Origin: a virus
Direction: 5' to 3' (one strand)
Length of the DNA: 22,611 nucleotides
IMG/VR virus record: IMGVR_UViG_3300045970_000407
Coordinates: 1-22,611 of that record
In this document: positions 5,963 to 19,947 of the stretch, in pieces
Position numbering within the stretch: position 1 is the stretch's first letter
Layout of the letters: every line of letters starts with the position of its first letter
Translations under genes and position numbers: made by a program
The notes under the pieces: model-generated
What the model was told of the DNA's origin: nothing
Database searches by the model: none
The model's input: the letters and a program-made list of their open reading frames with translations, nothing else

Positions 5963-6559
5963 TTATTTTAAAATACCCCATTGTTCTGCCATTGCGTCTG
6001 CAATTCCTTGGAATGTTTTACTTCTCAATTTCCACCTATCTGGTGACGGCGGCAGATAGTGTAGACGTTCTCTTTTATTCTTAGGTAGCTTCATCATTTC
6101 TTCCTTCACGTTGTTTGTGTGGGTTAAAAGCGGTAAATTGTCTAACCACAAGCATGTAGCCTTACTTTCCATGTGCCCAGAAAATCCAATTATGCATAAA
6201 TACGCCAAGGAAATCATCGGGGTTTCGCAATCACAAATAATACAACCGTATCAGTTTAGGCACTTCTTTTTAATTGGCGCGTCCCATAACAGCTTGAAAA
6301 ACTTAGCCCCTTCTTCCATTTTCTTCCACCGAGTTTTATCAGTGTGCAAATGGCTAACGCCACTATTACAAAGAAACGTGCATGTAGGATGGCCTATAAG
6401 TAAGTCCCACTCACGCGATAAAACGTCCCTGATATCACACTGAAAATGATTGCCAGGCTTATCCGTCGATAAAAGATCGCAAGACCATGCATCATGACCC
6501 AGCTTTGCAAATGCGTCCCTAACAGTCCCCGAAAACTCACATGCCACTAAAACTCTCAT
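5963..6559 (-). pseudogene. Phage DNA methyltransferase (C5-type motifs), broken by an internal inversion
   Basis: The N-terminal part (ATG 6559, GGAGG ribosome site) has motif I-like ACEFSG (residues 6-11) and a motif IV-like HPTCTF with candidate catalytic C60, then hits a TGA at 6253-6251. The C-terminal part continues in the same frame (SKATCLWLDNLP, LPPSPDRWKLRSKTFQGIAD, AEQWG). The expected middle, ENPIMHKYAKEI ... IIQPYQF, is missing on this strand but is encoded on the opposite strand at 6173-6263. Flipping that segment restores an uninterrupted 198-residue protein. As written the gene is inactive. Family motifs are recalled; the base specificity is uncertain. Confidence 0.88.
6173..6263. 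other. 91-bp inverted segment inside the methyltransferase gene
   Basis: The segment is bounded by GTGCC (6173-6177) and GGCAC (6259-6263), perfect 5-bp inverted repeats with no extension. Read on the plus strand it encodes CPENPIMHKYAKEI then IGVSQSQIIQPYQFRH, the block missing from the minus-strand gene. The inversion keeps length, so N- and C-terminal parts remain in the same frame. At the joins the restored protein would read KCP and R where I recall Ile-Ala-Ile and Gly in relatives. Repeats this short fit replication template switching better than a site-specific recombinase. Confidence 0.85.
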
Positions 6560-11263: not shown

Positions 11264-11402
11264 TATAATTCATTCCCTGTTCTATTTCCTGTATTGATTC
11301 TTTAATCAATTGAATCATAATTTCCCTATCATCACTCTTTGACTTCTCCCAAATTTTTAGGATAAGCTTAAGCTGTTTATATACCACTGGATACTTAGAC
11401 AT
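11244..11402 (-). CDS. Hypothetical helical protein (52 aa)
   Basis: A small helical protein starting MSKYPVVYKQLKLIL. ATG 11402 has AAGGAG seven bases upstream and overlaps the end of the Fis-type gene by 8 bases. No family recognised. Confidence 0.6.
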   Translation of the reverse strand: MSKYPVVYKQLKLILKIWEKSKSDDREIMIQLIKESIQEIEQGMNYNDETQD

Positions 11403-11946
11403 GTTCATACTCCTTTGCAATTTCTTCAAAATTTACATTAGATATTTTCAATCTAATATTTGTATTCGCTCTTTCAATTACGGCAAGAATTCTAGACTTT
11501 AATTGAATTCCAGTTCTTGAAATAAATCCAATCTTCTTTATTGATCTAATATGCATAGAGTCAATAATTGTTGCACAAAGATAAGTATCCTTATTTGTCC
11601 ATCCTTCATATCTTACAGTATCTTTAGGTGGAATAACTCCAGGTTTAGTTATCATTATTTGTTCAATCTTTTTTACCTGTTCTTTTTTCTCTATTGTTTT
11701 CTTTTCCTTTTCAAGTTTCTTTTCGCGTTCAATTTCATATTTATAAACTGGTCTTACTTTTACAGGGATAATAATTTTACCATATAGCACTCTCATTTTT
11801 TCTACTAGAGTAGTCCTATTAATCCCTAATAAATTTGCGGCCTGTGTTATGTTACCGTTCTTAGTATTCAAAGCGCGATTAATATAATCAATTTCAAGTT
11901 GAAGTAAAAGCTCTTTCAACTTAATTGGTTGTTCCATCTTTTCCAT
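11395..11946 (-). CDS. Fis-type helix-turn-helix DNA-binding protein
   Basis: A 183-residue protein. Residues about 12-52 (LLLQLEIDYINRAL ... GNITQAANLLGINRTTLVEK) match the Fis/NtrC C-terminal helix-turn-helix, with the conserved A-A-x-x-L-G-I-x-R-x-T-L core. A Lys/Glu-rich helix of about 25 residues follows, probably coiled coil, then a C-terminal domain without recognised motif. ATG 11946 has AGGAGG upstream. It is a plausible regulator or DNA architectural protein of the phage; its target is unknown, but operator-like repeats exist at 13952, 14038, 15725 and 15793. Confidence 0.82.
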   Translation of the reverse strand: MEKMEQPIKLKELLLQLEIDYINRALNTKNGNITQAANLLGINRTTLVEKMRVLYGKIIIPVKVRPVYKYEIEREKKLEKEKKTIEKKEQVKKIEQIMITKPGVIPPKDTVRYEGWTNKDTYLCATIIDSMHIRSIKKIGFISRTGIQLKSRILAVIERANTNIRLKISNVNFEEIAKEYEHV

Positions 11947-12142
11947 TATCTTCCTCCTCAATTGATAGTGTTAGATTAACATGTGCTAGTATGCCTTGCT
12001 TGAAGCGTATTTCCCGTTCTAGTTGATCCTTATAGGTATCGTGTAGATTGGGATAGGTTTCAAGTAACTTGTTTAAATTGGTAAGGTGAGCGATTAATTC
12101 CTTCTGTTCTTTTTCCAAGTCTAAATGTCTAAAGTGTTTCAT
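11921..12142 (-). CDS. Small coiled-coil protein (73 aa)
   Basis: A charged helical protein starting [13 protein letters not shown], with Leu spacing compatible with a coiled coil over residues 8-50, and an acidic end. It overlaps the Fis-type gene by 26 bases, carrying its ribosome site in the EEEDN codons. Unknown function. Confidence 0.65.
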   Translation of the reverse strand: MKHFRHLDLEKEQKELIAHLTNLNKLLETYPNLHDTYKDQLEREIRFKQGILAHVNLTLSIEEEDNGKDGTTN

Positions 12143-13070: not shown

Positions 13071-13811
13071 TTAAGCTGCAATTGCGAATTCGTTCGCCAG
13101 GTCAAACAATGATTCGTTTAATTTCACTAGTGATGTGATGTTGGTCAATTTCCGCGCCGTTCTTACTTGATTTCGCGCATTGCGTACATCATTTCCGCCA
13201 TTAACTAAATGTTCTTGAACCCTATTATATAGCGCGAAAACATTGTTTTGATCGTCTTCAGTTCTTAGTACTGGAAAACTAATGTCACTGGCTGTTTTGT
13301 TCTCGTAACGTAATTTTACAGCGCGTTCAATAAATGCCTGACTTTCTTCTCGTGTAAGTACTTTAGTTTTCATTGCTGTAAGTGTTTCATCAAGCTTTTT
13401 TGATTGAGCAACAATGCGTAGAATACTTTCTTCCACTTGCTCAAGAATCATGCCAGTATGACGCAATTTTACTTTCTCAAAAGTTGATCCGATGATTAAG
13501 CCATTGGCGCAACAAAAACGATATACACCTAGTTGCAATGTTAGCGCGTTCGTACCATCATGTGAATTCGTGACAAGCACTTGAAGTTTAGTGTCACTAT
13601 GAATACTAGACAATAAGGTAGGATTAGACAAGGATACTAAATGTTTCTGGAATCCTTGTTTGCTTTTATTCCTGACTTTTGCCTCTTGATATTTGTCCAC
13701 TGTAAAGCCCATATCCCTAAACTTTTGAGCAATGTCACGAGTCTTGACTAGTCGATACTTGTCTGACAACGTACTTAGTTTAGTATCTTGTGTTGTAATT
13801 TCTGTATTCAT
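13071..13811 (-). CDS. DUF932 family protein
   Basis: A 246-residue protein with the DUF932 pattern: YRLVKTRDIAQKFRDMGF near the N-terminus, GFQKHLVSL, TNSHDGTNALTLQLGVYRF and CCANGLIIG, then a helical C-terminal half with a RNARNQVRTARK basic stretch. The family is common in phages and plasmids; no biochemical role is established to my knowledge. It is the first gene after a promoter with a palindromic operator and lies next to the ArdC-like gene, a pairing I also associate with plasmid anti-restriction regions (from memory). Confidence 0.85.
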   Translation of the reverse strand: MNTEITTQDTKLSTLSDKYRLVKTRDIAQKFRDMGFTVDKYQEAKVRNKSKQGFQKHLVSLSNPTLLSSIHSDTKLQVLVTNSHDGTNALTLQLGVYRFCCANGLIIGSTFEKVKLRHTGMILEQVEESILRIVAQSKKLDETLTAMKTKVLTREESQAFIERAVKLRYENKTASDISFPVLRTEDDQNNVFALYNRVQEHLVNGGNDVRNARNQVRTARKLTNITSLVKLNESLFDLANEFAIAA

Positions 13812-14436: not shown

Positions 14437-15060
14437 TCAATTGAAATCCTTGCTTTGTGTCATTCTTTTAAATGAAATCCATAGAATTGCTTGCATAACT
14501 GGCGGCGTTACTTTGTTCAATGCTGCAATTTCACGAATAGATTCACTAATTAACTTGTATTCTGTTTTTTTCAATGGTGGTCGTTCGTCTACCGAAAGAT
14601 ACTTTCCTAGTGAAATTAATTGTATCCAGGAGTCTACCGTTACACATTCCGATTGTATATCATAGATATTAAGAAAAAAAGCTGATATTTTTTGTCCATT
14701 TAATAGCTTAAGCATAACTTGCACGGAATCAATCGGTGAATTATAAATTTTTTTTGCTTTGCTCACCATTGTGCCATAAGTAGCGTACTTACCATAAGGA
14801 ATCAATCCTTGACATTCCTTAATTAAGGTAATGCAATCCTCTTTGTTCCGTTCCCAACGATTGCGAGGAGATAACGCGGCCAGGATAGCCGATACTTTGC
14901 GAAAAGATACACCATAGTCTTTTGATACTTCAAAGGCAAAAAGTCTGGCATCACGATACCACCTTTCACCTTCAATGAAATCAGTTGATACCGCTTGATT
15001 TAGTACATAGTTAATATTTTTTGTATATTTTTGTTTTAATCTTAATTGTGTTTTATTCAT
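14437..15060 (-). CDS. Conserved phage protein, possibly glycosylase-like helical fold
   Basis: A 207-residue protein starting MNKTQLRLKQKY (AGGAG site, ATGA overlap). Motifs include ERWYRDARLFAFEVS, VSAILAALSPRNRWERNKED, GQKISAFFLNI, ECVTVDSWIQL and TPPVMQAILWISFKR. I recall this pattern from uncharacterised phage proteins (DUF7178-like). The G-x-K-x-x-x-F ... VTVDxW layout recalls the helix-hairpin-helix glycosylase fold, where a late Asp is catalytic; this is a weak structural guess. Confidence 0.6.
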   Translation of the reverse strand: MNKTQLRLKQKYTKNINYVLNQAVSTDFIEGERWYRDARLFAFEVSKDYGVSFRKVSAILAALSPRNRWERNKEDCITLIKECQGLIPYGKYATYGTMVSKAKKIYNSPIDSVQVMLKLLNGQKISAFFLNIYDIQSECVTVDSWIQLISLGKYLSVDERPPLKKTEYKLISESIREIAALNKVTPPVMQAILWISFKRMTQSKDFN

Positions 15061-15326
15061 TTTATTACTCCTAATTTTTGCCATACTGGAAACAATGCAG
15101 CAATATAGTTATTAAACTCTTTTCCTTTACTAATTACATTGTTATTATTTATTAACACTTGATTTTTAATCAATCCAGATAACATTGATTGAAATTGATC
15201 TAGGTTTAAAATGCCATTATAAGCCAAGTATGCATAGGATTCAATAATAGACTCGCAACCTTCTTCGTTTAGTGTTGACAACAGTGGATAATATAATTTA
15301 ATCGCTTGAATCAATTCCTTATTCAT
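15057..15326 (-). CDS. Hypothetical protein (89 aa)
   Basis: A helical protein starting MNKELIQAIKLYYPLL, with an NQVLINNNNVISKG turn region and a hydrophobic C-terminal helix ending KLGVIK. ATGA overlaps on both sides and AAGGAG upstream. No family recognised. Confidence 0.65.
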   Translation of the reverse strand: MNKELIQAIKLYYPLLSTLNEEGCESIIESYAYLAYNGILNLDQFQSMLSGLIKNQVLINNNNVISKGKEFNNYIAALFPVWQKLGVIK

Positions 15327-15490
15327 TTTTTAATCTCCTTCTTGTTTAATAATTCCCTAAATGTAATTGCTAAATCAATTTCATTATCTTCCAATGATAT
15401 ATCATTCTTTAGATACTCTTCATAATCCGAAGCAATGTAAACTTCTTTGGTTGATTTCTGTATTTCTGTTAATAATTCTAAACAATTCAT
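15323..15490 (-). CDS. Small acidic protein (55 aa)
   Basis: The frame starts MNCLELLTEIQKSTKE and ends FRELLNKKEIKK, with GGAG five bases upstream and an ATGA overlap with the next gene. Helical and acidic; unknown function. Confidence 0.6.
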   Translation of the reverse strand: MNCLELLTEIQKSTKEVYIASDYEEYLKNDISLEDNEIDLAITFRELLNKKEIKK

Positions 15491-15491
15491 A

Positions 15492-15650
15492 TTACTCCAC
15501 TTCTGTTAGTTTTGCTAACAATGCGTTATATGCTGCAAGTTGCGCAATGGCTTGATCTGTAACACTTGCAGAACTATTAAGACAATCTTGCTTGATTAAT
15601 AGTAACATACGAACTAACTCATTAACTTGATCTAATTTTTGTTTACTCAT
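15492..15650 (-). CDS. Small helical protein (52 aa)
   Basis: The frame starts MSKQKLDQVNELVRM and ends LAAYNALLAKLTEVE, two likely helices with Leu-rich faces. AGGAG lies about 10 bases before the start. It is the first gene of the leftward operon below the control region. Function unknown. Confidence 0.6.
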   Translation of the reverse strand: MSKQKLDQVNELVRMLLLIKQDCLNSSASVTDQAIAQLAAYNALLAKLTEVE

Positions 15651-15670
15651 AATCGGTTATCTCCTGACTT

Positions 15671-15676
15671 ATTATA
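15671..15676 (-). promoter_or_regulatory. Possible -10 element before the 15650 operon
   Basis: A perfect minus-strand TATAAT lies 20 bases before the ATG. No good -35 is seen, but an inverted repeat TGGCA/TGCCA sits just upstream (about 15683-15693), so it may depend on an activator. Confidence 0.3.
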
Positions 15677-15724
15677 ATGCAATGGCAATGCCAAGTTATA
15701 GGATATGGTTATAAACTAGATGAA

Positions 15725-15808
15725 TCTCAAATCGAATATAACCTGTACAATGTCTAGTCGTTTGATCAAAGTATAGACAGCAATTTCACTTTGATTCGAT
15801 TTAAGACA
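15725..15808. repeat. Operator-like cluster, copies 2 and 3
   Basis: GATTCGATTTAAGACA (15793-15808) is identical to 14038-14053. An inverted variant ATTCGATTTGAGA lies at 15725-15737. A GTATAGACAG element lies between them and GGTATAGATACC, itself palindromic, follows at about 15826-15837. The minus strand also has TCTATACTT, a possible -10, at the same side in both clusters. Confidence 0.5.
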
Positions 15809-15879
15809 AAGATTGGATTAGTGCGGTATAGATACCAGGCAATCTGTTAGATGCTCCTGTAAGGCAAGTAAAGTGAAAA

Positions 15880-16205
15880 GGATAGGTAAGGATATAAACA
15901 AGGATAGGATTAGATATTTCATAGGCTGTATATATACAGAGAACTGGATAATGTCAACTAGAAAGATTGAATGGTAAGGTATGAATGAAAGATAAGGTTA
16001 AGAGTAAAGGTAATGAATCTAATTCATAGGTAAGTATCAATTCAATGAAAGTCATTCACTAAACTATCCCCATCTACTCACATAATCTTTCCGTCAACCA
16101 AAACCCTATGACTATCCAATGACTACTCATTGACTATCCACTGGATATCCAAAATAGACTTTGACTATCCAACTACTATGGCATAGTCTTTGCTATAGCA
16201 TATCC
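15880..16205. other. Candidate replication origin / control region with phased repeats
   Basis: There is no gene here. GGATA occurs at 15880, 15890, 15902 and 15946. Its complement TATCC occurs at 16065, 16113, 16135, 16146, 16166 and 16201, so two opposed arrays face each other. TGACTATCCA is exact at 16109, 16131 and 16162, with a variant at 16120; spacings of 11, 11 and 31 bp put the sites on one face of the helix. Palindromes CTGTATATATACAG (15926-15939), ACTATG/CATAGT, TGCTATAGCA and CCATAC/GTATGG cluster here too. It lies at a switch in gene direction. An iteron-type origin or a multi-site operator both fit. Confidence 0.5.
15929..15957 (-). promoter_or_regulatory. Leftward sigma70-like promoter in the control region
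   Basis: Minus-strand TTGACA (15952-15957) and TATATA (15929-15934) are 17 bases apart. The -10 lies inside the perfect 14-bp palindrome CTGTATATATACAG, a natural repressor site. The flanking blocks TATTTCATAGG and ATGTCAACTAGA are shared with the promoter at 1058-1086. The rest of the gap to 16428 shows no gene. Confidence 0.55.
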
Positions 16206-16428
16206 TATACCATACTCTAGTGTATGGATTAACTATTTCAATTTACATTTTCAATGAGAGTAGTTGATCAATGGAAGTAGTGGAGTAGGGGTATGGGTTG
16301 ATTTTGGAAGAGTGAACGTTGTCGTAAGGTCATCCTACCAAAGCTCTAATTACATTCTAGAAACCATCCTCCTTCTCTATACGAGTATATGAGATATAGG
16401 AATTGGGGCTATCTAGTGTATATTTGAT

Positions 16429-19230: not shown

Positions 19231-19947
19231 ATGATAATATATAAGATCACTAATAAAATCAACAGTAAAGTTTATATAGGACAAACAGTTCAATCATTAG
19301 AAAAAAGATGGAGACAACATTGTTGTAAGAAAAAACATAGTATTTTATATCAAGCTATTCAAAAATATGGTAAAGAAAACTTTAAAGTCGAAGAGATTGA
19401 TGGAGCCAATTCATTGTCTGAACTTAACTATCTAGAAGAACATTATATACATATAAATAACTGTATTGCTTCTAATGGATATAATATATTACCAGGGGGT
19501 AGAAACTCATTACATACAGAAGAAACCAAAACTAAAATGAGAAAGCCTAAAGATTTTGGAGATAGGACGGATTTTTCATATAGAAAACATTCGGAAGAGA
19601 CTAAGAAAAAATTAAGAGATATGAAAATAAATAATCCGTTAGAATTTACAGAAGAACACAGAAGAAAAATATCTGAAAATAATAAAGGTAAAAAACATTC
19701 AGATGAATCGAAGAATAAAATATCATTATCTAAATTAAGACATACATATAATAAAGGAAGAAAATATAGTAAAAGAAATTCTGCTTCCATTAAAATTATT
19801 GCAATAAATGTAATAACAAAAGAAAAAATCATATTTAATAGTATATTAGACGCATCCAAATTTTTATTAATAAATACTGGAAGTATATCCAACATACTAT
19901 CAGGAAGAGGAAAGCAAACTAAAGACTGGACATTTAAAAAAATATGA
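19231..19947 (+). CDS. GIY-YIG homing endonuclease with NUMOD repeats
   Basis: A 238-residue protein. The GIY-YIG nuclease domain spans about residues 1-90: IIYKITN (2-8), KVYIGQT (13-19), R26, the LEEHYI catalytic glutamate (E69) and GYNILPGG. The middle has NUMOD3-type repeats (EETKTKMRKPKD, EETKKKLRDMK, EEHRRKISENNKG, DESKNKISLSK). The C-terminus has a NUMOD1-type helix-turn-helix (FNSILDASKFL, then GSISNILSGRGKQTKDWTF). It is a free-standing selfish element between operon genes. Very AT-rich. Confidence 0.93.
   Translation: MIIYKITNKINSKVYIGQTVQSLEKRWRQHCCKKKHSILYQAIQKYGKENFKVEEIDGANSLSELNYLEEHYIHINNCIASNGYNILPGGRNSLHTEETKTKMRKPKDFGDRTDFSYRKHSEETKKKLRDMKINNPLEFTEEHRRKISENNKGKKHSDESKNKISLSKLRHTYNKGRKYSKRNSASIKIIAINVITKEKIIFNSILDASKFLLINTGSISNILSGRGKQTKDWTFKKI

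Follow-up and report, generated by a model that had tools for sequence, protein, structure and literature searches.

The closest described counterparts of the arrangement reported here come from primates, yeast, bacteria and amplified DNA. In a set of 59 human/chimpanzee microinversions the inverted segments are flanked by inverted repeats of 3-75 nt, often imperfect, whose inner edges lie, with two exceptions, between -5 and +4 nt from the boundary, and published microinversions have been attributed to template switching or microhomology-mediated repair (PMC8755829). In yeast genes, spacers enclosed by short, non-identical repeats are known to become inverted (PMC8604942), and inversion-driven methyltransferase systems are known in bacteria (PMC4948785). 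When the DNA of a single E. coli cell was copied by multiple displacement amplification (MDA), more than 85% of the chimeras were inverted sequences and more than 70% of the junctions were primed at 2-21 complementary nt; inverted chimeras of this method, which uses phi29 polymerase, typically carry an intervening deletion (PMC1855051). In this study we describe a 79-bp segment that stands in inverted orientation within a phage DNA methyltransferase gene. The gene is found in the IMG/VR virus record IMGVR_UViG_3300045970_000407, which is linear and, at 22.6 kb, probably partial; the whole stretch of 22,611 nucleotides was analysed and is called the window below.

The phage segment resembles the human/chimpanzee cases in being a pure inversion, with the length kept and short inverted repeats near the breakpoints; the arm offset is +1 on both sides. 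However, those cases measure 17-33 nt and lie in primate genomes (PMC8755829), whereas here 79 bp are reversed and a phage gene is destroyed. As in the template-switch inversions of yeast, a spacer between inverted arms has been reversed inside a coding gene, but the yeast arms exceed 9 bp and enclose spacers of 2-5 bp (PMC8604942), whereas the phage arm has 5 bp, the segment has 79 bp and the arms have not been homogenised. With invertons and with phase-variable methyltransferases such as the hsdS inversions of S. pneumoniae (PMC4948785), the phage case shares an inversion within a methyltransferase gene. A literature search for phage microinversions returned nothing relevant. Except for being unusually long and occurring in a phage, the microinversion is ordinary.

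An inverted segment in a phage methyltransferase gene

The gene is one of a tightly packed row of minus-strand genes that dominate ∼0.1-15.3 kb of the window. Its ATG start codon occupies 6559-6557, with GGAGG upstream at a spacing of 7 nt, and its stop codon occupies 5965-5963. The following elements were recognised:

5963-6559, minus strand: phage DNA methyltransferase gene (phrog_757), interrupted; based on open reading frames (ORFs), on the sequence, and on how the pieces and the mended protein match the family
6258-6559, minus strand: N-terminal part in correct orientation (MRVLVACEFSG...GHPTC...APIKKKCL), with TGA next in frame; phrog_757, E=3e-26
6179-6257, plus strand: inverted segment of 79 bp, encoding ENPIMHKYAKEIIGVSQSQIIQPYQF, which is C5-methyltransferase motif VI; based on peptide homology and residue tests of four candidate breakpoints
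5963-6178, minus strand: C-terminal part in correct orientation (GHMESKATCLWL...AMAEQWGILK); phrog_757, E=7.5e-19, and phrog_27471, E=7.8e-20
6173-6177, plus strand: left arm, GTGCC, of the 5-bp inverted repeat that flanks the segment; itself not inverted and separated from the segment by C6178
6259-6263, plus strand: right arm, GGCAC, of the 5-bp inverted repeat that flanks the segment; separated from the segment by A6258

As it stands, the minus-strand frame reads ...APIKKKCLN and then meets a TGA stop, the C-terminal part follows in the same frame, and the middle containing ENP is encoded on the plus strand between GTGCC and GGCAC. This layout had been pointed out in a preliminary description of the window, and the sequence confirms it. 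Turning 6179-6257 round in place, as an exact reverse complement with the length kept, yields an open frame of 198 codons. With the middle reversed, the mended protein matches phrog_757 over its full length (E=4.8e-56), and identity to relatives across the entire protein is up to 69%. All three pieces match this one family, and the earlier claim that a microinversion breaks a phage DNA methyltransferase is supported. The window copy itself has no uninterrupted frame that includes ENP; in contrast to its relatives it has no correctly oriented motif VI, and it carries HPTC for the usual HPPC.

The middle piece can be recognised on its own. A 26-residue core of the plus-strand peptide, searched alone, matched 73 of 80 relatives at E<1e-3, and in 77 of 78 cases the core-peptide match lay on the strand that also carries the N- and C-terminal parts of that gene. 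By sequence comparison, the homology of the plus-strand peptide to the middle of the methyltransferase is far beyond chance. Identity to relatives was 0.68 for the turned segment, 0.69 for the C-terminal part and 0.57 for the N-terminal part, which was also the least conserved part in four intact relatives used as reference. Since the identity of the segment is close to that of the C-terminal part and above that of the N-terminal part, the segment has not visibly decayed since the inversion.

Two conserved residues flank the breakpoints and allow them to be located with single-base precision. A flip of 91 bp, with the arms included, leads to P101 and R128, whereas a flip of 79 bp (6179-6257) leads to L101 and G128; a unit of 77 bp (6180-6256) is equivalent to the latter, as the first base of the segment is A and the last is T. 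All 80 relatives of our first sample have G at residue 128. Residue 101 is I, V, L or M in 159/159 aligned copies from two overlapping samples, and never P. The second sample comprised 80 loci that partly overlap the first 80 and were selected for G at 128, hence it is uninformative on G128; at residue 101 it has I, L or V in 79/79 aligned copies, with L in 26. The 91-bp unit was rejected, as P101 and R128 are absent from the relatives checked. The preliminary description had proposed just this longer unit; its statement that the 91-bp flip restores the gene is inexact, as this version fails at residues 101 and 128, and the unit has to be corrected to 79 bp. Because only the inner flip restores L101 and G128, C6178 and A6258 were kept in place; a 91-bp inversion combined with two substitutions at exactly those two symmetric bases would be less simple. 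The breakpoints thus lie 1 bp inward of the inner edges of both arms and are not contained in the 5-bp arms, and the two breakpoint sites share one base pair only, with mismatches on either side. A segment length of 79 bp is among the three commonest in relatives (41 of 191 copies).

Enzyme type and predicted loss of function

For the methyltransferase there was no sequence match in Pfam, NCBIfam or PDB. The predicted model of an intact relative (L003; predicted local distance difference test score, pLDDT, of 95) matches DNMT3, M.HaeIII and M.HhaI, with E-values from 2.5e-6 and modest template modelling scores (TM-scores) of 0.47-0.60. As modelled, the phrog_757 fold is that of a cytosine-5 DNA methyltransferase. 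Motif VI (ENV) contacts the target cytosine in C5 methyltransferases. In the L003 model a strand at 98-103 leads into ENP, and the ENP of the inverted piece is the equivalent of motif VI ENV. With a frame that ends after the N-terminal half and without motif VI (ENP), this copy of the gene should be dead, and the truncated product, judged by its sequence, should be inactive.

A further peculiarity of the N-terminal part is independent of the inversion. Residues 57-60 of the window copy (6380-6391, minus strand) are HPTC, and relatives have HPPC in 72/80 and 73/78 cases; T in this position occurs in none of the 80 relatives and in one of the 78 of the second, partly overlapping sample. The change adjoins the presumed catalytic cysteine, and with HPTC the methyltransferase may have been weakened before the inversion took place. 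Two relatives carry two adjoining methyltransferase matches of the phrog_757 family on one contig, namely L118 (1471-3791) and L096 (1981-3129); the second match in L096 covers only residues 1-56.

Origin of the inversion

We consider it probable that the short cytosine-5-type methyltransferase gene of this tailed-phage-like virus underwent a recent, precise, in-place inversion of 79 bp that arose by a microhomology-primed double template switch or an equivalent break repair, as a sporadic mutation in the phage lineage and without any switch function. The 5-bp arms probably took part, because when two points 79 bp apart are placed at random in this window, a symmetric inverted repeat of 5 bp or more falls within 0-2 bp of them in only 0.37% of cases. 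This test was made post hoc, and with free offsets of -2 to +2 on both sides the chance of such 5-bp arms is 3.4%. In the process we envisage, the growing coding strand would end in GTGCCT and would anneal to the opposite strand at the far arm, GGGCAC. At that second arm, reading this same strand in reverse would give GTGCCC, and the pairing would consist of five matches and one T-G wobble. The segment would then be copied backwards, after which the strand would return to its own template with ∼1 matching base.

Several points weigh against this process. The main one is that a length of 79 bp exceeds the primate and yeast microinversion sets. The second switch would have had only ∼1 nt of microhomology, and the folding of the single strand is unremarkable (z=+1.1 versus shuffles). 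A hairpin explanation via a stable fold was rejected, as the strand folds no better than the shuffles. Moreover, an amplification chimera is a possible, if clearly less probable, alternative source.

Such a chimera would have arisen in the laboratory, by MDA or library polymerase chain reaction (PCR), and would have entered the assembly through low coverage; of the alternatives to a double template switch it is the one to be taken seriously. A junction primed by GTGCC fits the priming of MDA chimeras at 2-21 complementary nt, and the likeness extends to an inverted order that needs few complementary bases (PMC1855051). The segment has not decayed, as in a very fresh event, and no second record of the virus was found, neither by an exact-match search of IMG/VR nor by a megablast of the whole window against phage records. 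However, MDA inversions usually come with an intervening deletion (PMC1855051), whereas the phage case has two junctions, the exact length and nothing lost. The assembler alone could not have flipped the segment. Assembler k-mers are much longer than a 5-bp repeat, which therefore could not have misled an assembler of this kind, so that DNA molecules carrying both junctions were presumably among those sequenced.

Alternatively, two double-strand breaks might have occurred at the edges of the segment, with the fragment religated in reverse by end joining. This would keep the length exactly, and a one-base microhomology at the breakpoints would be allowed. We nevertheless regard it as improbable: it leaves the 5-bp arms unexplained, and many bacteria are without end joining. 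Two breaks so close together are unlikely as well, an argument that has been made for ∼20 nt (PMC8755829).

A programmed ON/OFF switch, in which a recombinase flips the segment and methylation is turned on or off (an intragenic inverton), is very improbable, although it would agree with a precise, length-conserving inversion inside a methyltransferase gene that is flanked by inverted repeats. Invertons and phase-variable methyltransferases use longer repeats and recombinases, neither of which was found for the phage segment. Site-specific recombinases need identical overlap bases, two in the case of serine enzymes and about six to eight for tyrosine enzymes. The breakpoint ends have a single base pair in common, which leaves no identical overlap over which strands could be exchanged and makes a conventional invertase unlikely. 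The larger proteins that were tested included no recognisable recombinase in the window, which belongs to a probably partial record. At 79 bp the segment is also far below the DNA persistence length of ∼145 bp, which has been used as an argument against recombinase looping for shorter segments (PMC8755829).

The inverted order was searched for in other sequences too. Two degenerate patterns gave no match in 2.9 million viral contigs (IMG/VR) and one gave none in 84,980 genomes (GTDB). The patterns do match the window itself, and, had the 191 sampled copies been inverted at identical positions, ∼70% of them would have been detected; this is an upper estimate, as part of the 191-copy sample was chosen by the same motif and the true figure is lower. 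Relatives with the orientation now present in the window, which would have spoken against an inversion, were thus sought in viral contigs and genomes and none were found. From these null searches there is no sign of recurrent inversion in the family. The ON/OFF switch of methylation that had been raised as a possibility receives no support. The earlier view that replication slipped between the short inverted arms, in preference to the action of a recombinase, is supported. It is highly improbable, too, that phage or host reversibly inverts the 79-bp segment without a conventional recombinase site, leaving a population mixed for methylated and unmethylated genomes.

That the present order is functional, with the two halves or a new plus-strand ORF expressed as useful proteins, can practically be dismissed: an 84-aa minus-strand ORF (5963-6217) and a 110-aa plus-strand ORF (6111-6443) do exist, but both are mere by-products of the inversion, neither half contains motif VI, and by eye no Shine-Dalgarno sequence precedes the ATG at 6217 or at 6177.

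Implications and other features of the window

Here the sequence by itself reveals a clean case of a phage gene inactivated by a microinversion. If real, the inversion that we ascribe to a double template switch suggests that the process known from yeast and primates also yields inversions of ∼80 bp in phages, and that the phage concerned could, at that time, do without the methyltransferase. As a practical lesson, the missing piece of a broken phage gene can be looked for on the opposite strand.

Elsewhere in the window, a 188-aa protein encoded at 11395-11961 (minus strand) has a Fis-type helix-turn-helix (HTH_8, E=3.3e-11). Two further minus-strand proteins belong to families without known function, DUF932 at 13071-13811 (E=8.9e-33) and DUF7178 at 14437-15084 (E=1.5e-35). 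A free-standing GIY-YIG homing endonuclease with NUMOD motifs is encoded at 19231-19947 (plus strand). The row of minus-strand genes meets the plus-strand genes at 15327-16428, a stretch of ∼1.1 kb with no ORF longer than 62 aa, which is possibly a divergent promoter or origin region.
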